Source: Candidatus Kuenenia stuttgartensis
GTDB taxonomy: Bacteria; Planctomycetota; Planctomycetia; Planctomycetales; Planctomycetaceae
Length of the DNA stretch: 64,000 nucleotides
NCBI GenBank assembly: GCA_945906725.1
Contig: CAMDRI010000005.1
Span: 1-64,000 of the forward strand
Direction of reading: 5' to 3'
Position 1 is the first letter of the stretch; each line of letters opens with the position of its first letter. Of this stretch, positions 3,234 through 20,313 are shown piece by piece. The notes below the pieces were generated by a model. It worked only from the letters and a program-made list of their open reading frames with translations, did no database searches and was not told the origin of the DNA. Made by a program: the position numbers and the translations under genes.

Positions 3234-3271
3234 CAGCCGATCATTTGGAAGATCACTCATCAGGGAGGGGC

Positions 3272-6200
3272 ATGGAATTGGACTTTTCTCCCGAGATCAG
3301 TGGCGACATGAAAACAACGAACCACGAGACCACTTCCGAAGATTCGGCTCCCATGCTGGCGCAGAAGACTGTCGTGGTCATCGGCAACGGCATGGTCGGT
3401 CAACGCTTTTGCGAAAAGCTGGTCGAGTTCGATAAGGCCCAGCAATTCCGCATCGTGACTTTCTGCGAGGAACCGCGCGCGGCTTATGACCGTGTCGGTT
3501 TGACGAGTTTCTTTGCTCACCGAGACGCCGAAAAGCTGATGATCGCGCGGATGGATTGGTATCGCGATCACGGCATCGAGATTCATCTCGGTGACCGCGC
3601 GTGCTCGATGGATTGCGAACAGAAGATCATCCGCTCGCAAAAAGGGGTCGAGATCAAGTACGACTTCGCGGTCATGGCGACGGGGTCGTACCCGTTCGTG
3701 CCGCCGGTGCCGGGCTTTAATAAGCAAGGCGTGTTTGTCTATCGCACGATCGAAGACCTCAACCAGATCATCGAGTACTCCAAGAAGTCGAAGCGCTGCG
3801 CGGTCATTGGTGGCGGATTGCTCGGCCTGGAAGCGGCGAAGGCCGCGTTTGATCTGGGGCTGGAAACGCACGTCGTCGAGTTTGCTCCGCGACTGATGCC
3901 CCGGCAGATCGATGACGCCGGCTCGCGCACGCTGGTGAAGAAGATCGAGTCGCTGGGCGTGACGGTGCATCTCAACAAATCCACGAAAGAGGTGCATGGC
4001 AACGGCGTCGTCGAACGCATGGAGTTTAACGACGGCTCGACGCTCGACGTCCAGATGATCATCGTCTCGGCCGGCATCCGCCCGCGAGATGACCTCGCCA
4101 AGGAAATCGGTATCGACGTTGGCCAACGCGGCGGCATCGCCGTTAATGATCAGATGCAAACCTCCAATCCGACAATCTTCGCGATTGGCGAATGCGCTCT
4201 GCATCGCGGAATGATTTATGGACTTGTCGCCCCCGGCTACGAGATGGCCGAACTGGTGGCCGCGAACTTGACCGGCGACGAACGACATTTCACGGGGACC
4301 GACCTCTCGACGAAGCTCAAGCTGATGGGCTGCGATGTCGCGTCGTTCGGTGACTATGAAGCTCCGCCCGAGCGGGCTGTGCCGCTGACTTTCGATGACA
4401 CGTTTGGCGGCGTCTACAAAAAGTTGCTGTTCAGTTTGGATGGCACGAAATTGCTCGGCGGCATCCTGGTCGGCGACGCGAGCGAATACGGAACCTTCTC
4501 GATTCTGGCGAAGGGAACGCAGCCTCTGCCGTGCAAGCCACATGAATTGCTCGTCGGCAAGACCGGCGGTACGGCGCTGGGTGGTGTCGATGCGATGCCG
4601 GACGAGGCACAAATTTGCTCGTGCAACAACGTCAGCAAAGGGGCGATCTGTCACGCGATTCGCGAAGGGAGTCTGGATTCGGTCGGTGCGGTGAAAGGCT
4701 GCACGCGAGCCGGCACCGGCTGCGGCGGTTGTATGCCGCTCGTCACCGACCTGTTCAACGCCGAACTCAAGAAGGCCGGCAAGGTCGTCGTCAATCACTT
4801 GTGCGAACATTTTTCGTTGTCACGCACTGAGCTGTTCGCAGTCGTGAAGGTCAAGGAGTTGAAATCGTTTGATGCGGTCATTCAGCAATGCGGTCGCGGC
4901 AACGGCTGTGAAATCTGCAAGCCGGCGGTGACGTCGATTCTCGCCAGCTTGTGGAACGAAAACATCATGGCGGGCGATCACGCGACGTTGCAGGACACGA
5001 ACGATCGCTTCCTGGCGAACATGCAGCGCGGCGGACTGTACTCGGTCATTCCTCGCGTACCCGGCGGTGAGATCACGCCCGACAAGATGATCGCCATCGC
5101 CGAGGTCGCGAAGGATTACAAGCTCTACACAAAGATCACCGGCGGACAACGGATCGACTTGTTCGGTGCTCAGGTCCAAGACCTGCCGGACATCTGGGAA
5201 CGCTTGGGAGCCGCGGGCCTCGAAAGTGGACACGCCTACGGCAAGGCGCTGCGAACCGTGAAGAGTTGCGTCGGCACAACGTGGTGCCGATTCGGCGTGC
5301 AGGATTCTGTCGGTTTCGCGGTGCGGATTGAAAACCGATACAAGGGCGTGCGAGCACCTCACAAAGTGAAGATGGCGGTCAGCGGCTGCGTGCGTGAATG
5401 CGCCGAGGCTCAGGGAAAAGACGTGGGCTTAGTCGCGACCGAGAAGGGCTACAACATCTACGTCTGCGGCAACGGTGGAGCGAAGCCGCGACACGCCGAC
5501 TTGCTCATCGGCGACATCGACGAAGAGACGGCGATCAAATACATCGACCGCTTCTTCATGTACTACATCATGACCGGCGATCGTCTGACGCGCACGTCGG
5601 TCTGGTGCGAGAAGCTCGAAGGAGGTATCGACCACATCCGCGACGTCGTCGTGAATGACAAACTGGGGATCGCCGCCGAACTCGAAGCGATGATGCAGCG
5701 GCTAGTAGACACCTACGAATGCGAATGGGCCGCCGTCGTCAAAGATCCCGCGAAACGCAAACGCTTCACCCAGTTCGTCAACACGGACGAAACGGAGTCG
5801 TGCATCGAGATCGTCCCAGAACGCGGACAAGCTCGGCCGGACTTCTGGCCGAACGAGTTCGTCTCGCTGGAACAATTCCGCGCGATGGACTCCCCACTTC
5901 CCACTCCCCACGCCCCGCTCCTCACTTGGACCTCAGTCGGCAAAGTCTGGGACTTTCCGAAGGACGGCGGCGCGACGATCAAATACGGAGCGGTGCAGAT
6001 CGCGGTCTTCAACTTCGCGTCGCGCGGCGAGTGGTACGCGACTCAGAACATGTGCCCGCACAAGAAGGCATTCGTGCTCGGCCGAGGCATCCTCGGCGAC
6101 GCGGCCGGGACTCCAAAAATTGCTTGCCCGCTGCACAAGAAAACGTTCTCACTGCAAACCGGTGAGTCGCTGCAAGGGGAGGAATACAGCATCCGCACGT

Positions 6201-6367
6201 TCTCGGTGCGTGTCGACGGCGACGACGTGTTGCTCGAACTTCCGGCGACCGAGATGCTCGACGCCGACTTGGCGACGGAGATCGGCTGCCGCTTGGCGAC
6301 GCCGTGTCAGACAAGCTGCTCGTCGGAGCAGACAGCCGCTCAACCTCGCGAACTGTTGGAAGTGTAG
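3272..6367 (+). CDS. nirB: Assimilatory nitrite reductase, NirB-NirD fusion
   Basis: A 1031-residue NAD(P)H-dependent nitrite reductase that would reduce nitrite to ammonia in the cytoplasm. Domains in order: FAD/NAD(P) disulfide-oxidoreductase fold from about residue 28 (VVVIGNGMVG; second nucleotide site VIGGGLLGLE); two BFD-type [2Fe-2S] modules (CSC..CGGC near 449-488 and CGRGNGCEIC near 541-550); ferredoxin-like and siroheme/[4Fe-4S] core with SCVGTTWC and CVRECAEAQ; and a C-terminal Rieske-type NirD domain with CPH near 928 and CPLH near 952. NirB and NirD are usually separate proteins. The junction is a Pro-rich linker (SPLPTPHAPLL). ATG 3272 is chosen for its AGGGAGG site, with ATG 3308 as an alternative. 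Confidence 0.93.
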   Translation: MELDFSPEISGDMKTTNHETTSEDSAPMLAQKTVVVIGNGMVGQRFCEKLVEFDKAQQFRIVTFCEEPRAAYDRVGLTSFFAHRDAEKLMIARMDWYRDHGIEIHLGDRACSMDCEQKIIRSQKGVEIKYDFAVMATGSYPFVPPVPGFNKQGVFVYRTIEDLNQIIEYSKKSKRCAVIGGGLLGLEAAKAAFDLGLETHVVEFAPRLMPRQIDDAGSRTLVKKIESLGVTVHLNKSTKEVHGNGVVERMEFNDGSTLDVQMIIVSAGIRPRDDLAKEIGIDVGQRGGIAVNDQMQTSNPTIFAIGECALHRGMIYGLVAPGYEMAELVAANLTGDERHFTGTDLSTKLKLMGCDVASFGDYEAPPERAVPLTFDDTFGGVYKKLLFSLDGTKLLGGILVGDASEYGTFSILAKGTQPLPCKPHELLVGKTGGTALGGVDAMPDEAQICSCNNVSKGAICHAIREGSLDSVGAVKGCTRAGTGCGGCMPLVTDLFNAELKKAGKVVVNHLCEHFSLSRTELFAVVKVKELKSFDAVIQQCGRGNGCEICKPAVTSILASLWNENIMAGDHATLQDTNDRFLANMQRGGLYSVIPRVPGGEITPDKMIAIAEVAKDYKLYTKITGGQRIDLFGAQVQDLPDIWERLGAAGLESGHAYGKALRTVKSCVGTTWCRFGVQDSVGFAVRIENRYKGVRAPHKVKMAVSGCVRECAEAQGKDVGLVATEKGYNIYVCGNGGAKPRHADLLIGDIDEETAIKYIDRFFMYYIMTGDRLTRTSVWCEKLEGGIDHIRDVVVNDKLGIAAELEAMMQRLVDTYECEWAAVVKDPAKRKRFTQFVNTDETESCIEIVPERGQARPDFWPNEFVSLEQFRAMDSPLPTPHAPLLTWTSVGKVWDFPKDGGATIKYGAVQIAVFNFASRGEWYATQNMCPHKKAFVLGRGILGDAAGTPKIACPLHKKTFSLQTGESLQGEEYSIRTFSVRVDGDDVLLELPATEMLDADLATEIGCRLATPCQTSCSSEQTAAQPRELLEV
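5887..5925 (+). repeat. C-rich microrepeat encoding the NirB-NirD linker
   Basis: A tract of repeated CCCAC/TTCCC words (ACTCCCCACTTCCCACTCCC and onward) runs in frame between the NirB and NirD parts. It encodes an SPLPTPHAPLL-type linker unlike the surrounding protein. On the opposite strand it is a GTGGGGAGT-like G-rich tract. A related purine-rich tract lies inside nasA at 10024-10058. Confidence 0.6.
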
Positions 6368-6375
6368 GTCGAGCG

Positions 6376-8157
6376 ATGAGTGCAATCATCGAGGAATCTC
6401 GGCGAGCGGAGGGCGTTAGCCCCCCGGATGGTGGATCGCCGGATGACGCTCGGTCAACCGAGGGACTAACGCCCTCCGCTCGCCAGATGCCTGTCGTCAG
6501 CGGCGATTCGCTGCTCGCGCGATTGCTGGCCGATCAGCAGCAGCTCACCGCTGTCGAAGAGTTCGCCCGACAGTATGACGGCGATGAACTGCCCGCGCAG
6601 TCGCGGTTTTACAAGTCGCTGATTCCGGCGAGTCTTCCCGGTCCCGGTCAGCAGTATGCCTTCGAGGTCGATCTCGACCGCTGCTCCGGTTGTAAGGCGT
6701 GCGTGACGGCGTGCCATTCGTTGAACGGACTCGACCACAACGAGACGTGGCGCGATGTCGGCATGTTGATCGGCGGGACGACGGAGTTGCCGGTTTTGCA
6801 GCACGTCACGACCGCGTGTCATCACTGCCTCGAACCAGGCTGCATGTCCGCGTGCCCGGTCGATGCCTACGAGAAGGACCCGATCACCGGGATCGTGAAG
6901 CATCTCGACGATCAGTGCTTCGGCTGTCAGTACTGCACGCTGGCCTGTCCGTACGACGTGCCGAAGTATCACAGCGGTCTCGGCATCGTCCGCAAGTGCG
7001 ACATGTGCTCGGATCGGCTGGCTCACGGCGAGGCTCCCGCGTGCGTGCAGGCGTGCCCGCACGAGGCGATTGCGATTCGGATCGTCAGCCGAGCTCAAGT
7101 CGTCGAGGACTGCGAAGCGAATACGTTTCTGCCAGCCGCTCCCGAACCGCAGATCACGTTGCCGACGACGTCGTACAAGTCGAAGAAAGTTTTCCCACGC
7201 AACTTGTTGCCGGTCGATTTTCATTCGGTGAGTGCTCAGCATCCGCACTGGCCGCTGATCGTGATGCTGGTGCTGACGCAGTTGTCGGTTGGTGCGTTTC
7301 TGGTCGGCCTGGGTCTCGAACGTTTGCTCTCTGACGAGCTGATCGCGGCGATTCGCCCGCTGCATTCGCTGAACGCGCTGGCGTTCGGGCTGCTCGCGCT
7401 GGGGGCGAGCACTCTGCATCTCGGCCGCCCGCAGTACGCTTGGCGAGCGGTCATCGGCCTGCGGCATTCGTGGCTGTCGCGCGAGATCGTGGTGTTCGGC
7501 GCGTTCGCCGGAGCGGCCGTGCTGTACGCGGTCGGCAACTGGTTCGGCTTTGAGTCCCTCGGCCTCGGCCCGTTCGTGCATGACGCCGTCGGCTGGTCCG
7601 TCGGAGCGTTTGGACTCGTCGGCGTGTTCTGTTCGGTGATGATTTACGCCTTCACGCAGCGGGCTTTTTGGAGCTTCCCGTTGACGGCGACACGATTCGC
7701 GCTGACGACTGCGTTGCTCGGCATCGCGACGACGTGGGTGACGCTTTTGGCTCTGGCGGTCATCAACAACGGCCCGGTCACGCGACTGCTGGTGCGTCGC
7801 GGCGATCTCGTTTGCGAAGGGCTAATGATCGTCACTTCGCTGAAGCTGGCATTCGAGGCGATGGTCTTCCGGCATCTGCTCCGCAAACAAACGACGCCGC
7901 TGAAGCGTTCGGCGTTGCTGATGACCGGCCCGCTAGCTCGCTGGACCCAAGCTCGCTTCGCCTGCGGAGTGCTTGGCGGAATTCTGCTGCCGATGGTCCT
8001 ACGCAGCCTGATCGGCGACGTGGCACCGTCCTCGCCAGCGATGCTGATCGCCACCGCCGTGATGGTCAACATCTGCCTGATCGGAGAACTTTTGGAACGC
8101 TACCTCTTCTTCGCCGCTGTCGCATCACCTCGAATGCCAGGGAGTCTGCGTCCGTAA
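6376..8157 (+). CDS. DmsB-DmsC-type fusion: 4Fe-4S ferredoxin plus membrane anchor, electron donor to NasA
   Basis: A 593-residue fusion. The N-terminal half is a DmsB-like ferredoxin with four cysteine groups (CSGCKACVTAC, CHHCLEPGCMSACP, CFGCQYCTLACP, CDMC..CVQACP), expected to hold four [4Fe-4S] clusters. The C-terminal half has about eight hydrophobic helices, beginning WPLIVMLVLTQLSVGAFLVG, like the DmsC quinol-oxidising anchor. It probably passes electrons from the quinone pool to NasA. ATG 6376 is chosen because it follows the nirBD stop by eight bases and avoids overlap. Residues about 9-36 (RRAEGVSPP to LTPSARQ) are encoded by an inverted-repeat element inserted in frame. Confidence 0.88.
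   Translation: MSAIIEESRRAEGVSPPDGGSPDDARSTEGLTPSARQMPVVSGDSLLARLLADQQQLTAVEEFARQYDGDELPAQSRFYKSLIPASLPGPGQQYAFEVDLDRCSGCKACVTACHSLNGLDHNETWRDVGMLIGGTTELPVLQHVTTACHHCLEPGCMSACPVDAYEKDPITGIVKHLDDQCFGCQYCTLACPYDVPKYHSGLGIVRKCDMCSDRLAHGEAPACVQACPHEAIAIRIVSRAQVVEDCEANTFLPAAPEPQITLPTTSYKSKKVFPRNLLPVDFHSVSAQHPHWPLIVMLVLTQLSVGAFLVGLGLERLLSDELIAAIRPLHSLNALAFGLLALGASTLHLGRPQYAWRAVIGLRHSWLSREIVVFGAFAGAAVLYAVGNWFGFESLGLGPFVHDAVGWSVGAFGLVGVFCSVMIYAFTQRAFWSFPLTATRFALTTALLGIATTWVTLLALAVINNGPVTRLLVRRGDLVCEGLMIVTSLKLAFEAMVFRHLLRKQTTPLKRSALLMTGPLARWTQARFACGVLGGILLPMVLRSLIGDVAPSSPAMLIATAVMVNICLIGELLERYLFFAAVASPRMPGSLRP
6401..6484 (+). repeat. Intragenic palindromic element in the DmsBC N-terminus
   Basis: Two 27-base arms (6401-6427 and 6458-6484) are inverted copies matching at 25 of 27 positions, with core GGCGAGCGGAGGGCGTTAG. 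The element is translated in frame as part of the DmsBC N-terminus. A diverged copy of the same family sits at 32042-32128, where its arm supplies the last residues and stop codon of another gene. The arms carry no GTAG head, so this is a different family from the GTAG repeats listed elsewhere. Confidence 0.8.
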
Positions 8158-8158
8158 C

Positions 8159-8331
8159 TTTGGAGTGCGGCGGCCCGACGCCGCTCTCCCACTTTTTTCC
8201 ATTATTGTCCCACCAGGCGATGACCACTTTTCAGATTTCGGAACCCGATGATGACCGCCAAATCACCCGAACAGGACGCGGAAAAGAGAAATAAAAATTG
8301 GCAAAGCGGCGTCGGGCCGCCGCACTCCAAA
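8159..8331 (+). repeat. Long inverted repeat spanning the nasA start
   Basis: Arms 8159-8185 and 8305-8331 are perfect inverted copies over 27 bases (TTTGGAGTGCGGCGGCCCGA and onward), separated by about 119 bases. The nasA start codon at 8248 lies inside the loop. The right arm is translated as part of the NasA N-terminus ([10 protein letters not shown]). The left arm begins one base after the dmsBC stop codon. A folded mRNA here could sequester the nasA ribosome-binding region. Confidence 0.8.
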
Positions 8332-10518
8332 TGGCTGCGTGCCTTCGATGGGCCGCTGACTCGCGACTTGCTGTTGTCGCCAGGTGGGTTTGGGCTGGGA
8401 CAAGTCCCCGCGAAGTCGCAACCGGATGCGGTGACGACGTCGGTCTGCGGGTACTGTTCGACAGGATGCAGTCTCAACCTGCACTTAAAGGAGGGCGAGG
8501 CGATCTCGCTGTCGCCGAACACGAATTACCCGGTGAACCTCGGCATGGCCTGTCCGAAAGGTTGGGAGGCGCTGACGGTCCTCGATGCGCCCGATCGAGC
8601 GACGACTCCGCTGCTGCGTGATGCCAGCGACAAGCTCAAGCCGGTCGATTGGAGCACGGCGCTTCAGACGTTCGTCACGCGGATGCAGGGGATTCAATCG
8701 CGACACGGCGACGATTCGATCGCCTTTATCAGCACCGGCCAGATGGCGACCGAGGAGATGGCGTTCCTTGGAGCGCTCGCGAAGTTCGGCATGGGGATGA
8801 AGCACGGCGATGGCAACACGCGGCAGTGCATGGCGACCTCCGTCGTCGCTTACAAGCAGTCGTTCGGCTTCGACGCTCCACCATACACATACGGCGACTT
8901 CGAGGAGTCCGACACGATCGTGCTGGTCGGCAGCAATCTGTGTCTCGCACACCCGATCATGTGGGAGCGAGTGATGCGGAACAAACACAAGCCGGAGATC
9001 ATCGTCGTCGATCCTCGCTGCACCGAAACCGCGATGGCCGCGACGCTGCACCTGCCGCTGGCTCCGAAGTCCGACATGGATTTATTCTACGGCGTGGCTC
9101 GCATTCTGATCGAGCGGAGCTGGATTGACCGCGAGTTCATCGACGCGCACACGAACGACTTTGATTCCTTCGCCGAGTTCGTCCAGCCATTCACGCTCGA
9201 CCGAGTCGTCGCCGCGACCGGCTTGTCGGCCGAGACGATCGAACGTTTCGCGACGTTGATTCACGAAGGGAAACGTGTCTCGTTCTGGTGGACGATGGGA
9301 GTCAATCAGAGCTATCAGGGAGTCCGAACGGCACAGAGCCTCATCAACCTCGCGCTGATGACGGGCAATATCGGCAAACCGGGGACGGGAGCGAACTCGA
9401 TCACCGGCCAGTGCAACGCGATGGGCTCGCGGCTGTTTTCCAACACGACCGGACTGCTCGGCGGCCACGACTTCGCAAACGCCGAACACCGCGCGAAGGT
9501 CGCCGAAATCCTGAACATCGACGAGGCTCGCATCCCGCGCGAGTCGTCGTTGGCGTATCACGAAATCCTCGAAGGAGTGCTGAAGGGCAAGATTCACGGT
9601 CTATGGGTCATTTGCACCAATCCGGCACATTCTTGGATCAATCAGCGACTGTGTCACGACATTTTGGATCGCTTGGATTTCCTCGTGGTGCAAGACATGT
9701 ATCACTCGACCGAGACGGCGCAGCGAGCACATCTCGTGCTTCCGGCCGCTGGCTGGGGCGAAAAAGATGGCACGTTCATCAACAGCGAACGCCGATTCGG
9801 AATCTTGAAAAAAGTACGGCGACCGCCGGGACAAGCTCTGTCCGACTTCTCGATCTTTCGATTGATCGCTGACGCCTGGGGCTGCGGACAAATGTTTGAC
9901 CGTTGGGATTCTCCGGAAGCGGTGTTTCAGATTCTGAAACAGCTATCCGCCGGACAACCCTGCGACATCACCGGGATCGAAGACTACCGGATGATCGAGG
10001 AGAGCGGCGGAATTCAATGGCCGCTTGTGAGGGGCGAGGGATCAGTGGCAAGAGGTGAGAAGGAACGTCGACTTTTTTGCGACGGTCGCTTCTATCATCC
10101 CGACGGTCGCGCGACATTTCTGTTTGAAGCTCCGCGGCCGATGCCAGAGCCGGCGTCGGCAAAGTATCCGTTCGTGTTGCTGACGGGACGCGGAACGGCG
10201 TCGCAGTGGCATACGCAGACGCGGACCTCGAAGTCAGAAGTCTTGCGGAAGCTGTATCCGCAACTGCTGTACGTCGAGATCAATCCGAACGACGCCCGGT
10301 CGCTCGGCATCGCCCCGAATGAAATTGTCTCGGTGGAGTCGCAACGTGGGCGAGTCACCGCGCAGGCGTTTCTGACTCCGAGCGTCCTCGTCGGTCAGGT
10401 GTTCGTGCCGATGCACGAGTCGAATGCGAACCAACTCACCGACGCGGTGTTCGATCCGTACTCAAAGCAGCCGAGCTACAAATCTTGTGCGGTGAGGGTG
10501 ACTCGTATCGGAGCGTAA
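8248..10518 (+). CDS. nasA: Assimilatory nitrate reductase catalytic subunit (molybdopterin oxidoreductase)
   Basis: A 756-residue Mo-bisMGD enzyme that would reduce nitrate to nitrite in the cytoplasm. The N-terminal [4Fe-4S] motif is clear (CGYCSTGC at residues 67-74, with the fourth Cys in GMACPKGW near 99). The molybdopterin core ([31 protein letters not shown]) and the C-terminal dinucleotide-binding domain ([13 protein letters not shown] to GQVFVPMHE) follow. It lacks the C-terminal BFD [2Fe-2S] domain found in many proteobacterial NasA proteins, consistent with electrons arriving through the DmsBC-type partner just upstream. Residues about 17-28 come from the right arm of an inverted repeat, and an in-frame G-rich insertion sits near residues 593-604. 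Start ATG 8248, or the adjacent ATG 8251. Confidence 0.92.
10024..10058 (+). repeat. In-frame purine-rich microrepeat inside nasA
   Basis: The tract GTGAGGGGCGAGGGATCAGT and the bases after it are translated as [13 protein letters not shown], a segment that looks inserted between otherwise conserved NasA stretches (GGIQWP and [16 protein letters not shown]). It resembles the reverse complement of the C-rich tract that forms the NirB-NirD linker at 5887-5925. Confidence 0.45.
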
Positions 10519-11471: not shown

Positions 11472-13469
11472 ATGAGCAAGAAACCTCAACTAGACCAACC
11501 TGCTGACGACTGGGCAGGTTTGGCTCAGAATCTTTTTGGCATCAATTTGGACAAAGCCACCGGCGACGATGACCTGCTGGACGAGGATATGTTCAAGGTC
11601 GAGCTATCCAAGCCGTCCGAACCGCCGGTTTCGATTCCTCAGTCCGAAGTTGAGTTTGCACCTGCAGCGGTGTGTGAAGCGGTCCTGCCGACACCCAATT
11701 CGTCCCCGGTTGTGGCCACGAAACCGCCGATCAAGGCGGTCCCCAAACGAGTTGTCAAACCGACTGCCAGCAGCGACGACTCGTTCGGGTTCGGCATTGT
11801 CGAAGAGGTTGAAGTCGCTCGCACTTCGGCTGCCGAGTGCTCAACCGCCGAAGCCAGTTTTCTCTCGGATGACGATGGTTCGACCTTGCCCGATGACTAC
11901 GAGGCTGAAGGGCTGACCTTGCCTGCAGACTATGACGATGGGCTAACTCTGGCTCCGGAAGGCATCGCGGCCAGTGTCGATGTCACAGACAGCGAGGAGG
12001 ACGAGGAAAGCGATACCGAAGTCCTCTTGCCTGGACGCGTTGATGCGGCCGGAGAGAATCGAACTGAGCCTCGCCGCAGCAGGCAACCTCGCCGCACGCG
12101 AGAAGATGCCTATTGGGACATGCTTGAGAATTGGGAATGGGAAGAAATTCCAGACACGGATTCGCCACGCACCGGAGGTGAACGGCCTCGATCACAGCGC
12201 GACGACCGAGGAGATCGTGGTGGACGCAGCGGCGGCGGCGACCGTGGGCGCCGGGATCGTGGTCGAGACGAACGTCCGCGATCAGAGAATCGTTCGCCAG
12301 TCGAGCAACGACCGCCCCGAGATGAACATCGCCCCACTGAGGTCGCGCCTGCTTCGGGAAGTAACTCCGGTGATCGGCCACCTCATCCGCGACGCGGGGA
12401 CCGTCCCCGTGACGATCGTGGTCCACGAGGAGACCGGCCGAGTGGCGAGCGTCGTCCGGAGCGCGATGATCGCCGACGCGACGAACCTCGTCAGGCCGCC
12501 CCAGTCAGACAGTCAACCAGCCAACCAGCCGCACCCTCCGCCGGCGGCTTCGAGGATTTCGGGAGCGGAATCTTCGACGAACAACCCAAAGTCACTCCGC
12601 CTTCCTCGAGAGTGCCCCACGTGGTGTCCGCCCATCGGCCTCGTGAGGAATCCGTTGCGCAAAGTTCACAAGCGCCGGATGCCGTTTTGAACGATCGCAG
12701 CGGACCGGTCGGTCGGTCGATCGATGATGAACTCGTTTGGCCCGACGAAGATTCGGACGTACGACCGGCACCTGGTGACATCGCGGTAGAGACTTCGAGG
12801 CTTCCGCCAGCCGAGGCTGCGGGTGAATCCGATGAGATGGTCTCGGCCTCGGATGTCGAACCGTTGGACAAAGACGATGACGCGCAGCGTCCACGCCGCC
12901 GTCGTCGTCGCCGTCGTGAGACTCGTTCGGAGTCCCGCGCATTGCCTCCGGATGGCAACGAAGGAACGACATTCGATCTGAGCGACGCCTTGGCGGCCGA
13001 CAGCGAGTCTCCCGATTTCATTCCCGCTGCCGTCGCGGGCGATTCTGCTGTGAGCGATGGCCTTGGCGATGAATTCGCTGCGGACGGTGCCTCCGACGCA
13101 GATCGTCTTTCCTCCGAACCGCGCAGTGGTGCCCGGCGTCGCCGCCGCCGTCGGCCTGGTGACGGTCCGGCAAGAGGCGCGGACTCCAAATCGAATCGCG
13201 AACCTTTTACGGAAGGAAGTGCTGCTGACGTCGTCGAGGCTGTCGATGGCGACGCCTATGTGGTGACGCCGATCGCCTACACGAACATCCCTTCATGGGA
13301 AGAGGCGATCAAGTACTTGTTGCAACCTCAGCTTGTCGGCCGCAATTTGGGGCCGGACGACGCCGATGAAAGCCTTGAAAATGATCCGCGCGGATCGGGC
13401 GGAGCAGAACCGACGCCGCCACCCCCCCCCCAACGCCGCCGCGGCGGTGGCCGAGGTCGACGACCTTAA
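11472..13469 (+). CDS. Large disordered acidic/Arg-rich protein, function unknown
   Basis: A 665-residue protein of low complexity. The N-terminal third is acidic (LPDDYEAEGLTLPADYDDGL repeats). The middle is rich in Arg, Asp, Gly and Pro (RSQRDDRGDRGGRSGGGDRG). Basic clusters RRRRRRRRE and RRRRRRPGD occur further on. Near residues 610-640 there is a conserved-looking segment (TPIAYTNIPSWEEAIKYLLQ), and the protein ends in a Pro-run and RRRGGGRGRRP. The composition resembles RNA-binding or condensate-forming regions such as RNase E tails, but no catalytic domain is present. A homopolymeric C tract near 13420 is prone to sequencing or slippage errors and affects only the C-terminal Pro run. 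Confidence 0.75.
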   Translation: MSKKPQLDQPADDWAGLAQNLFGINLDKATGDDDLLDEDMFKVELSKPSEPPVSIPQSEVEFAPAAVCEAVLPTPNSSPVVATKPPIKAVPKRVVKPTASSDDSFGFGIVEEVEVARTSAAECSTAEASFLSDDDGSTLPDDYEAEGLTLPADYDDGLTLAPEGIAASVDVTDSEEDEESDTEVLLPGRVDAAGENRTEPRRSRQPRRTREDAYWDMLENWEWEEIPDTDSPRTGGERPRSQRDDRGDRGGRSGGGDRGRRDRGRDERPRSENRSPVEQRPPRDEHRPTEVAPASGSNSGDRPPHPRRGDRPRDDRGPRGDRPSGERRPERDDRRRDEPRQAAPVRQSTSQPAAPSAGGFEDFGSGIFDEQPKVTPPSSRVPHVVSAHRPREESVAQSSQAPDAVLNDRSGPVGRSIDDELVWPDEDSDVRPAPGDIAVETSRLPPAEAAGESDEMVSASDVEPLDKDDDAQRPRRRRRRRRETRSESRALPPDGNEGTTFDLSDALAADSESPDFIPAAVAGDSAVSDGLGDEFAADGASDADRLSSEPRSGARRRRRRRPGDGPARGADSKSNREPFTEGSAADVVEAVDGDAYVVTPIAYTNIPSWEEAIKYLLQPQLVGRNLGPDDADESLENDPRGSGGAEPTPPPPPQRRRGGGRGRRP

Positions 13470-16903: not shown

Positions 16904-16963
16904 GTAGGTTGGTCTGCTTGGCGGACTGCCCGACCGAGGGACGGGCAGGAGTGCCCATCCTAC
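16904..16963 (+). repeat. GTAG/CTAC-bounded inverted repeat (GGGCACTCTTGCCC family)
   Basis: Begins GTAGGTTGGTC and ends GCCCATCCTAC, with inner hairpin text CTGCCCGACCGAGGGACGGGCAG. It lies between the DUF1080 gene start and the 3' end of the GspE-like gene. Same family as 10530-10595 and 18312-18339. Confidence 0.65.
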
Positions 16964-16969
16964 AACGAT

Positions 16970-18292
16970 TTATGCAACAGGTTTGAAGACACGCTGCAAT
17001 TCTTCGAGGGACGTGATCCCTTTGGCGACGTGCCGCAGGGCATCTTTCGAAAAGGTGGTCATGCCCTCTTTGCGAGCCACGGTGCGGATCGCATTCGCAT
17101 CGCCGCCGCCGATGATGCACTCTTTGACTCCGGCGGACATCTCGATGATCTCGAAGATGCCGATGCGGCCGAAGTACCCTGTGTCGGTGCACTTTTCGCA
17201 GGGATCTGGCTCTTCGACTTCACCTTTTTCGTTCTCGGTGGCGACCGGTTTGCGGTACAGCGTCTTCGTGTCGGAAGGCAGCCCGACTTTGGCGATGAGC
17301 TTGGGATTTGGCCGATAGGCTTGCTTGCACTCGGGACAAATCATGCGAATGAGCTTGGTGTTGATGAGTCCCATCAAGCCGTTCGCCACGAGGCTGGCAT
17401 CGCCGACCCATTGCACCAATTGCACGATCGCGCTCGCGCAATCTTTGGCTGCCATCTCGGACATCAGCGTGATCTTGTCCTGCATCGCAAACAGAGTCTT
17501 GGCGATGTCTGCGTTGATGACCGGATCAACGAAGACGCAGTCCGACTCAACGCGAATAATCCGCATCAGCGTCTGTTCCAAGGAGTCCTCAGCGTTGGCC
17601 TGGTACGGCGTGACATTGACAACTTCACGAGTTCCCAAGTCGCGCAGCGAATGAACCTGGAACATATAGCAATCCACGCCCCGCAACATGCCGAAAGCTG
17701 TCGTCGTGACGCCGGTGTTGGGAGTACCGACCGAGAGGCTCAGTCCCTTGTGCTGGCTGGTCCATTCGCGGATTTTTTTCTTGAGATCGTCCGACATGCC
17801 CAATTCATCCGGTGTGACGATTTGATTCTTGAGCGGGCGAGACTTGATCGTGAGCAGTTCGCTGCCGTCTTGTTGCGGCTTAGTGTTGACGACCAGTTCA
17901 TACGGCAGTTCATTCCATTGAGCCTTCAAGCCACCGGACTGCGGTTGATTGCGGACTTTGATGTCCAGTCCGGCGAGCAGTTTGAGCATCTGCGTGATCG
18001 CCAGTCCTTGCGGCTTCGTCAGCTTGCCACCGGCGTAGGGCATCCCGTCGACAAGAAACGCGACTTGCGAGCGTTCCCCTTTCGGCTCGACGCGAATTGT
18101 CTCCGCGCGGCGTGTCAAACCATCGGTGACCAGTTCTTTGGCGGGATTCAAGCCTGCCTGAACCAGTCGCTGATTCTCTTTCATGTTGGGCTCTTTGCCG
18201 TTGAGCGCGCCCTGAAAGAGAACCAGTTCGACTTCTTCTTCATCGTCTTCGTCTTCATCGTCTTCTTCTGCACGACGACCGAACAATCCCAC
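16970..18292 (-). CDS. GspE/PilB-like type II secretion/type IV pilus ATPase homologue with degenerate active site
   Basis: A 440-residue protein with the architecture of GspE/PilB hexameric ATPases. The Walker A position reads GTPNTGVTTT, so the ATP-binding Lys of GxxGxGKT is replaced by Val. The Walker B and Asp-box region reads SDCVFVDPVINADIA instead of DPDxIxVGEIRDxETA, so the catalytic Glu is lost. The usual HTNDA box is also absent. By contrast the zinc-binding region (CPECKQAYRP and CEKCTDTGYFGRIGIFEI) is intact. This suggests a structural or regulatory pseudo-ATPase. GTG 18292 is the chosen start, with GGGAG eight bases upstream. The longer open frame overlaps dapA. An acidic run (EEDDEDEDDEEEVE) follows the start. 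Confidence 0.8.
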   Translation of the reverse strand: MGLFGRRAEEDDEDEDDEEEVELVLFQGALNGKEPNMKENQRLVQAGLNPAKELVTDGLTRRAETIRVEPKGERSQVAFLVDGMPYAGGKLTKPQGLAITQMLKLLAGLDIKVRNQPQSGGLKAQWNELPYELVVNTKPQQDGSELLTIKSRPLKNQIVTPDELGMSDDLKKKIREWTSQHKGLSLSVGTPNTGVTTTAFGMLRGVDCYMFQVHSLRDLGTREVVNVTPYQANAEDSLEQTLMRIIRVESDCVFVDPVINADIAKTLFAMQDKITLMSEMAAKDCASAIVQLVQWVGDASLVANGLMGLINTKLIRMICPECKQAYRPNPKLIAKVGLPSDTKTLYRKPVATENEKGEVEEPDPCEKCTDTGYFGRIGIFEIIEMSAGVKECIIGGGDANAIRTVARKEGMTTFSKDALRHVAKGITSLEELQRVFKPVA

Positions 18293-18311
18293 GATCTGAT
18301 CTCCCTGAAAT

Positions 18312-18339
18312 GTAGGATGGGCACTCTTGCCCGTCCTAC
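18312..18339 (+). repeat. GTAG/CTAC palindrome between dapA and the GspE-like gene
   Basis: A 28-base palindrome from GTAG to CTAC around GGGCACTCTTGCCC. It occupies most of the 50-base gap between dapA (stop 18343) and the GspE-like start (18292). It may form a hairpin in the intercistronic mRNA. Confidence 0.65.
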
Positions 18340-18342
18340 GAA

Positions 18343-19230
18343 TTACAGTAACCCATACGTCTTCAATGTACCGGCCAAGCTCTCGCGCTGTCTGGCGTCG
18401 AGTGGTGTGAGCGGCAACCTGACTTCGCCGGTATCGCGGCCGAGCATCTGCATTGCCGCCTTCACCGGAATCGGATTTGTCGACAGCCCGAGCATATCGC
18501 GGCAGAGGGGGAATAACTTGCGATGCCATTTTTGAGCACCAGCGATGTCACCTTTCTCCCACGCAGCGAGCATCACCTTGACGTCCTTGGGCACGATGTT
18601 GCCGACGACGGACACGACGCCACGTCCGCCCAGCGACATCAACGGCAGCGTCAAACTGTCGTCGCCGGAAAGGACCGTCAAGTTGCTCAGGGCGATGATT
18701 TGAGACGCGGCATCCATCGAGCCGGTTGATTCTTTGACTGCCACGACGCTTGGCAACTCGCCGATGCGAGCGATCGTTTCCGGCTCGATATTCTTGGCCG
18801 TGCGGCCGGGAATGTTGTAGAGGATGATCGGCAAATCGCACGCCTCGGCGATCGCCTTAAAGTGCTGATAAAAGCCTTCCATGGTTGGCTTGTTGTAGTA
18901 CGGCCCCACGACGAGCGCCCCGTCCGCTCCCGATTTCTTGGCGGCGACCGTCAGTTCGATCGCCTCCGCCGTGCTGTTCGAGCCGGTGCCAGCAACGACC
19001 TTGATGCGTCCTCGAGCTTGATCGCAGACGACGTCGATGATGCGATGATGCTCGTCGTGCGTCAGCGTTGGACTTTCGCCCGTCGTGCCGACCGGACAGA
19101 CCGTGTCGGTTCCCTGCTCGACATGCCAATCGACCAGCTTTCGCAAGCCAGATTCGTCAAGCAGCCCATTCCGAAACGGTGTGATCATCGCGACGGTCAG
19201 CCCTGCAAACTTCTCGCCCTTCGAAGTCAT
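18343..19230 (-). CDS. dapA: 4-hydroxy-tetrahydrodipicolinate synthase
   Basis: A 295-residue class I aldolase that condenses pyruvate and aspartate semialdehyde in lysine and diaminopimelate synthesis. Visible signatures are GTTGESPTL (pyruvate-binding Thr), ILYNIPGRT (catalytic Tyr) and VAVKESTG (Schiff-base Lys). Length is exactly that expected. ATG 19230 ([10 protein letters not shown]) is chosen over the upstream in-frame ATG at 19263. Related N-acetylneuraminate lyase or keto-acid aldolase functions remain possible for this fold, but the motifs fit DapA best. Confidence 0.9.
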
Positions 19231-19256
19231 GATGCCATTCTCTGTTGAGTCATTAA

Positions 19257-19358
19257 ACCCCACCGGCCTTGTGCCGGTGGATTGCCGGATTCTGCACTAC
19301 TGCGCCGGACATGTTGATTCGTGCAAAAGCCCGCAAGCCACCGAGACAAGCTCAGTGG
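19257..19358. repeat. Hairpin-rich interval (CACCGG/CCGGTG family) upstream of dapA
   Basis: A strong hairpin (CCCCACCGGCCTTGTGCCGG and onward) starts the interval, and an inverted counterpart region ends in CAGTGGGG. Related CACCG..CGGTG hairpins occur at 44199-44221 and 46690-46710. The interval separates dapA from the upstream dehydrogenase gene. Confidence 0.45.
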
Positions 19359-19366
19359 GGAGAACA

Positions 19367-20284
19367 TTATCTGCCCTTCCAATCGACATCTGACATCCGT
19401 GCCAACGCCAATTGCAGTGCGTGTGTGCCGAGCCGCCCGCCTCCTTGAGCCTTCAGCGACAGGTACAACTGATGCGACAACGCCAAGCCGGGCAGAGCGA
19501 GATTCATCCGCTTTGCTTCATCGAGCGCGATCCCCATGTCTTTGATAAAGTGCTCGACGAAGAAGCCCGGATCGAAGTTGTTGGCCATGATCCGCGGGCC
19601 GAGATTCGACAGAGACCAGCTTCCTGCCGCTCCGACCGACACTGATTTCATCACCGTTTCCAGATCGAGTCCCGACTTGTAGCCGTACAGCAAAGCCTCG
19701 CAGACGCCGACCATGTTGCTGGCGATCAGAACTTGATTGACCATTTTCGTGTGCTGGCCGGCACCGGGACCACCCTGATGAATGATCGTTTTCCCCATCG
19801 CGGCGAAGCAGGATTGCAAGGCATCGACGACCTCTTTGTCGCCGCCGACCATGATCGACAGCGCCGCATTCTTGGCTCCGATGTCTCCGCCGGAGACCGG
19901 GGCATCGACGCTGAACACCCCCTTGGCCTTCGCGGCCTCAGCGATCTCGACTGCCAGCGACGGCTCGCTGGTCGTCATGTCCACAAGCACGTTGCCGGGT
20001 TTCGATCCGGCCAGTGCCCCATTCGCGCCGAGCATCACTTCGCGGACATCGCTGGGAAATCCGACGATCGCGAAGATGACGTCGCTTTGCTGGGCAAGAG
20101 CCTTTGGCGAATCGGCCCAACCGGCTCCTTTGCCGAGCAATGTCTCGGCCTTAGCCTTCGTTCGCGAGTACACGGAAACTGCAAAGCCTGCAGCGAGTAA
20201 ATGCCCGGCCATACTGTTGCCCATCACGCCGGTCCCAATCCAACCAATTTTCGTCTTGCCCGGAACAATCACCGGAACCGCCAT
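19367..20284 (-). CDS. 3-hydroxyisobutyrate dehydrogenase-family reductase (tartronate semialdehyde reductase type)
   Basis: A 305-residue beta-hydroxyacid dehydrogenase. The Rossmann motif GWIGTGVMG lies near the start. The substrate signature region [16 protein letters not shown] and the catalytic-Lys segment [13 protein letters not shown] are clear. It reduces or oxidises a small hydroxy acid with NAD(P)H. Candidates are 3-hydroxyisobutyrate or tartronate semialdehyde, which motifs alone cannot separate. ATG 20284 is preferred (AAAGGTGAC upstream) over ATG 20302. Confidence 0.85.
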
Positions 20285-20313
20285 CGTGTCACCTTTTGTC
20301 AATCGTTGTTGAT

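Follow-up and report, generated by a model that had tools for sequence, protein, structure and literature searches.

The window (the whole 64,000-nucleotide stretch of DNA analysed here) encodes a 440-residue protein that belongs to the PilB/GspE family by descent and fold, yet fails nearly every catalytic test. Our reading of this protein is that it is an ancient, constrained pseudo-ATPase of that family, an old duplicate which has turned into a non-catalytic structural or regulatory subunit, and we put the probability of this reading as a whole at roughly 45%. The component of it that we hold with near certainty is that the pseudo-ATPase is a conserved, functional protein that does without ATP hydrolysis, while its association with a motor is proposed more tentatively. 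A branch of the family that lacks the catalytic residues and is nevertheless kept in 57 of 58 genera implies that the PilB/GspE fold is valuable without hydrolysis, and makes the pseudo-ATPases a natural test of which PilB/GspE residues are structural and which catalytic.

A preliminary description of the locus had called the protein a GspE/PilB homologue, encoded by an intact frame of 440 residues with a good start. The open reading frame is real, with its GTG codon behind an AGGGAG site (Table 1), and the homology is borne out by the T2SSE match, the predicted fold and the structure matches. T2SSE is the sole Pfam family above its cut-off (113.9 bits against 24.9, E 8.6e-33), while the NCBIfam equivalog cut-offs for GspE, PilB and TfpB were all missed, the best score being 142.5 bits against the 630 set for TIGR02533. 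Among solved structures, the protein matches PilF, PilB and GspE. AlphaFold2, supplied with 43 orthologues, predicts a complete PilB fold of N2D and RecA-like CTD domains (mean pLDDT 89.9, pTM 0.82), with pLDDT falling below 50 solely in the acidic first 17 residues. Searching with this predicted model, Foldseek ranked PilF and PilB at the top with E of about 1e-33 (2e-33 to PilF), and VIA-align gave a Z of 36.7 over 375 residues against Geobacter PilB. These results predict an intact monomer fold, the model resembling, over residues 44-438 (Z 32-37), the type IV pilus extension ATPases PilB and PilF (5zfr, 5tsg, 5oiu) and GspE/EpsE of type II secretion (1p9r, 4ksr).

Table 1. Features of the pseudo-ATPase gene and its upstream neighbours, in window coordinates
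Feature	Position	Strand	Details and evidence
Pseudo-ATPase CDS	16970..18292	-	440 aa, GTG start at 18292, stop at 16970; translation, Pfam T2SSE, orthologues, dN/dS, AlphaFold2 model pLDDT 89.9
Ribosome-binding site AGGGAG	18301..18306	-	8 nt 5' of GTG; sequence; congeners have a comparable GGAG motif before the gene
N-terminal beta strand region LVLFQGALN	18197..18223	-	residues 24-32; F26/G28 invariant; counterpart of the FIGK element of the anchored paralogue
P-loop GTPNTGVTTT	17699..17728	-	residues 189-198; Lys replaced by V195; G189/G194 invariant in 65 orthologues
Degenerate ASP box HSLRDLGTR	17627..17653	-	residues 214-222; both Glu gone
Degenerate Walker B DCVFVDPVINAD	17507..17542	-	residues 251-262; GE replaced by D256-P257
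Degenerate HIS box ITLMSEMAAKD	17441..17473	-	residues 274-284; no His; E279 fixed in 64/65
First zinc-binding pair C319-x2-C322	17327..17338	-	64/65
Second zinc-binding pair C365-x2-C368	17189..17200	-	64/65
C-terminal motif around GITSLEELQRVF	16985..17023	-	residues 424-436; most conserved segment of the family
dapA-like gene (DHDPS)	18343..19263	-	directly upstream, same strand; adjacency in 13/27 genera
3-hydroxyisobutyrate dehydrogenase-like gene	19367..20302	-	upstream of dapA, within the conserved neighbourhood

Strictly conserved catalytic residues are what defines the PilB/GspE ATPases, and the roles of those of Geobacter PilB have been assigned (PMC5424180); our residue equivalences to that protein rest on pairwise and multiple alignments rather than on superposed structures. 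By this measure the Walker A lysine K331 is replaced by V195 and the catalytic glutamate by P257, the ASP-box residues E357 (Mg-binding) and E353 by T221 and R217, and the arginine finger R271 by V134, leaving K150 (equivalent to R286) as the sole finger that is still basic. Both HIS-box histidines, H413 and H420, are lost, and the box is one residue shorter than in active enzymes. The preliminary description had pointed to the strings GTPNTGVTTT (residues 189-198) and VDPVINADIA (residues 255-264), both of which are present, and to loss of the Walker A lysine, the Walker B glutamate and the HIS box; the actual loss is wider, extending to both ASP-box glutamates and one of the two arginine fingers. 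Its claim that ATP would not be hydrolysed by the known mechanism, a deduction from sequence, now has the loss of seven residues behind it instead of three. Unlike PilB, PilF and GspE, the protein thus has no Walker A lysine, catalytic glutamate, ASP-box glutamate, HIS-box histidine or R271 finger; it also lacks an N1 domain, and no pilus or secretion gene was recognised beside its own. What it has in common with them is the two-domain N2D/CTD layout, the inter-chain arginine (R455 of Geobacter PilB, here R316) and a tetracysteine zinc site, whose retention had also been noted from the single sequence and which is found, as C319, C322, C365 and C368, in 64 of 65 orthologues.

The losses are a property of the whole orthologue set. 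Across 65 non-redundant orthologues the Walker A lysine does not occur once, the position reading Val in 43, Thr in 9, Leu in 7, Ser and Ile in 2 each, and Arg and Ala in 1 each; the catalytic position is Pro in 54 and Glu in a single sequence, and histidine is absent (0/65) from both HIS-box positions. The ASP-box glutamate equivalent to E357 is present in about 2%. An arginine equivalent to R271 survives in 13 of the 65, while position 150 is Arg in 32 and Lys in 24. The lysine is gone from all 65 sequences and the glutamate from 64 of them, a recurrence that neither chance nor sequencing error explains. G-x4-GK[ST] is retained by the other PF00437 proteins that we checked in this genome, and the five that were aligned to the pseudo-ATPase also keep GEIRD; a search among these for further catalytically dead T2SSE proteins found none, all retaining GK[ST].

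Orthologues were found in 162 of 170 genomes, representing 57 of the 58 genera, of the window's family, which we infer to be Planctomycetaceae. The eight family genomes without one are mostly fragmented assemblies, three being at least 94% complete. In a set of 40 relatives, an orthologue at E <= 1e-60 is present in 11 of 11 congeners and, of 13 further genera from the family, in 12. None was seen in other families, either in this set or when 297 genomes from the class were searched with a profile. The profile search gave two separated groups of scores: one, at 475-749 bits, came from the window's family only, and twelve examined members of the other (330 bits or less) were the active membrane-anchored paralogue described below or a close relative of it. 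A scan of genome contigs returned only near relatives of the pseudo-ATPase family and a few distant T2SSE ATPases. Within the genus, pairwise dN/dS is 0.04-0.12. Decay of a pseudogene, or a recent loss in one lineage, has nothing in its favour beyond how the motifs appear when one sequence is viewed alone: presence across the family, intact frames, the absence of the lysine from all 65 orthologues and the low dN/dS rule it out, leaving it a negligible probability. The preliminary description had likewise argued against a decaying pseudogene, and the orthologue alignment it recommended, with no GKT in any sampled orthologue and Glu at the catalytic position in 1 of 65, shows that the loss is not recent. 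In the open papers, we found no description of a conserved PilB/GspE pseudo-ATPase and none of planctomycete GspE paralogues, although one may exist elsewhere.

The pseudo-ATPases come out as a single clade (SH-aLRT 100) on a long stem (length 1.79) in a maximum-likelihood tree, where they group with a membrane-anchored ATPase (SH-aLRT 99), apart from other PilB/GspE proteins. The anchored group is itself weakly supported as a clade (SH-aLRT 62), which leaves two placements for the pseudo-ATPase, as sister to this group or as an offshoot from within it. It is strongly supported that the pseudo-ATPase is a paralogue whose nearest relatives are this active PilB-like ATPase, widespread in the class; the duplication is placed at or before the ancestor of the family. 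The anchored ATPase (in the window's own genome the copy G000:C3, L086:7325-9187, 620 aa) shares with the pseudo-ATPase an N-terminal hxFxG element (in full hxFxGxxxG) and the LYRxP region between the zinc pairs. Unlike the pseudo-ATPase, it carries the active motifs GPTGAGKS, GEIRD and STVHANDA and a hydrophobic, apparently membrane-spanning N-terminus, a part of about 200 residues that is missing from the pseudo-ATPase. In 14 of 15 loci the next gene encodes a membrane protein of about 240 aa, and in 8 of 15 the gene before that of the anchored ATPase encodes a PilT-like ATPase; no pilin gene was recognised at these loci, which may encode a minimal pilus-like motor. The loci (L086:7325-9187, minus strand, in G000:C3, and L160-L173) come from two families of the class, and several lie beside hisF.

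Comparison with the anchored enzyme reveals that constraint has shifted from the catalytic segments to the N-terminal strand and the C-terminal motif. From anchored enzyme to pseudo-ATPase, conservation drops from 0.80 to 0.54 in the ASP box, from 0.84 to 0.53 in Walker B and from 0.80 to 0.59 in the HIS box, stays at 0.77 in the first zinc region, and rises from 0.66 to 0.76 in the N-terminal strand and from 0.77 to 0.84 in the C-terminal motif, absolute values that are not strictly comparable given that the two sets differ in depth (65 sequences against 12). The C-terminal TSLEELQR motif persists. R316, present in all 65 orthologues, is the equivalent of Geobacter PilB R455, which contacts the next packing unit (PMC5424180), and position 150, basic in 56 of 65, corresponds to R286, the finger that reaches the neighbour's ATP. 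Two residues are newly fixed: R244, where active enzymes have Ser or Ala, and E279, where they have Thr.

The P-loop does not quite follow the other catalytic segments, its conservation being 0.74 against a family mean of 0.61, with the Walker B, ASP and HIS boxes below that mean. Together with G189 and G194 in 65 of 65 orthologues and T196 in 61, this would fit a sensor whose P-loop still binds a nucleotide or other phosphate-containing ligand without hydrolysing it. We regard such a sensor as improbable: the lysine, the Mg-binding and catalytic glutamates and the HIS box are all gone, position 191 is Pro in 59 of 65, and the glycine pattern may serve the shape of the loop only.

There are several possible roles for a protein of this kind, and genomes that lack the sister ATPase bear on them. 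Neither the anchored ATPase nor its 240-aa partner was found in 15 genomes (genera g6, g35, g37, g42, g48 and g53), one of them a single-contig assembly rated 100% complete, while both are present in ten comparison genera, the window's own included. All 15 keep the pseudo-ATPase, with F26, G28, R244, E279 and R316 intact; on the pseudo-ATPase tree the absences need two changes, by parsimony two losses. The pseudo-ATPase is thus independent of that system, at least in those lineages, and an obligate partnership with the anchored ATPase is ruled out for them. A dedicated regulator or mixed-ring partner that dampens or shapes the anchored motor accordingly seems unlikely, even though the two proteins are sister clades with a common N-terminal element, the anchored ATPase is found in nearly all other family genomes sampled, and D284, G372, G72 and R67 are among the positions conserved only where it is present. 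Eleven positions in all differ between the main sister-less clade and the rest, but such shifts mostly reflect the history of one clade and are weak evidence.

The locus itself offers a different candidate. In 13 of 27 genera dapA lies directly upstream of the pseudo-ATPase gene on the same strand, often itself preceded by the dehydrogenase gene, and across 15 neighbourhoods (the window and 14 others of 16 kb) these two are the only widely recurring neighbours; downstream are a DUF1080 (3-keto-disaccharide hydrolase) gene and a recG-like gene. Among the neighbours that were annotated, no gene for pilin, PilC/GspF, secretin or PilM was recognised beside the pseudo-ATPase gene in the window or seen to recur in the 14 other neighbourhoods; a pilus or secretion operon was thus not found here, and a functional tie does not need linkage. 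This arrangement, and the persistence of the pseudo-ATPase without the sister ATPase, would suit a repurposed scaffold with no part in a pilus or secretion motor, serving as a platform for protein binding and perhaps linked to dapA and the dehydrogenase (lysine and diaminopimelate, hence the cell wall). Such a scaffold deserves consideration as a minority possibility: dapA is not adjacent in 14 of the 27 genera, so inherited gene order could by itself explain the link, and the kept PilB fold, zinc site and inter-chain arginine go beyond what an unrelated platform needs.

Our preferred reading, of a non-catalytic structural or regulatory subunit, starts from an ancient PilB-like duplicate that lacks the anchor and has lost essentially the whole ATP site, but has kept the two-domain fold, the zinc knuckle and R316 and fixed R244 and E279. 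The product would be a soluble, cytosolic subunit and would still make PilB-type subunit contacts, either among its own copies or to an active PilB/GspE ATPase of the cell; its part in a type IV pilus or type II-like motor or platform would then be structural or regulatory. That such contacts still matter is suggested by the retention of the fold, the zinc site, R316 and, in part, the basic finger, although the oligomer residues could be needed for folding only. A role as the motor itself is argued against by the wholesale loss of the ATP site. Against a motor-associated role stand the lack of any recognised pilus or secretion gene beside it and the 15 genomes that keep the pseudo-ATPase where its nearest active paralogue and the membrane partner are absent. 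The preliminary description had also suggested looking for pilus or secretion genes of matching phylogenetic distribution. The pseudo-ATPase is confined to one family, while the other PilB/GspE systems, found in every family genome checked, also have relatives well beyond that family; none of them is singled out by its distribution.

Inactive subunits of ring ATPases, such as the clamp-loader delta subunit, keep the ATPase fold for a non-catalytic role in or beside the ring. The pseudo-ATPase may work in a like manner, a comparison of workings only, given that the two families are unrelated and a mixed ring is hypothetical here. In such a ring the dead paralogue would sit with active PilB/GspE subunits and supply the trans-acting basic residue 150 and the inter-chain arginine 316, having no ATP site of its own. 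We think this arrangement a long shot; were it true, the result would be an asymmetric, part-catalytic pilus motor of a type not reported in the literature we found. The question of function is testable, as an orthologue is present, at 1742278-1743585 on the minus strand of the chromosome, in the genome taken to be that of Planctopirus limnophila DSM 3776, a strain whose gene essentiality has been mapped genome-wide with transposons (PMC10632474).

Some further observations were made around the locus and elsewhere in the genome. On either side of the gene lies one copy of a short palindromic repeat, GGATGGGCACTNNTGCCCGTCC, at window positions 16939-16960 (minus strand) and 18315-18336 (plus strand). 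The repeat has 128 matches in the genome at no more than one mismatch, against 0 for the reversed control, and many copies pair up in inverted orientation at a spacing of about 40 bases, much as REP/REPIN elements do. On the plus strand at 11472-13469 of the window there is a 665-aa open reading frame, rich in Arg, Asp and Glu and with long Arg runs, that ends just before the recG-like gene; a homologue also lies beside the recG-like gene in a congener (locus L126). Lastly, at about 3249-10401 (minus strand) of locus L087 (G000:C133), three T2SSF (PilC/GspF-type) proteins in a row come after a T2SSE ATPase, which is unusually many for a single secretion-like cluster.
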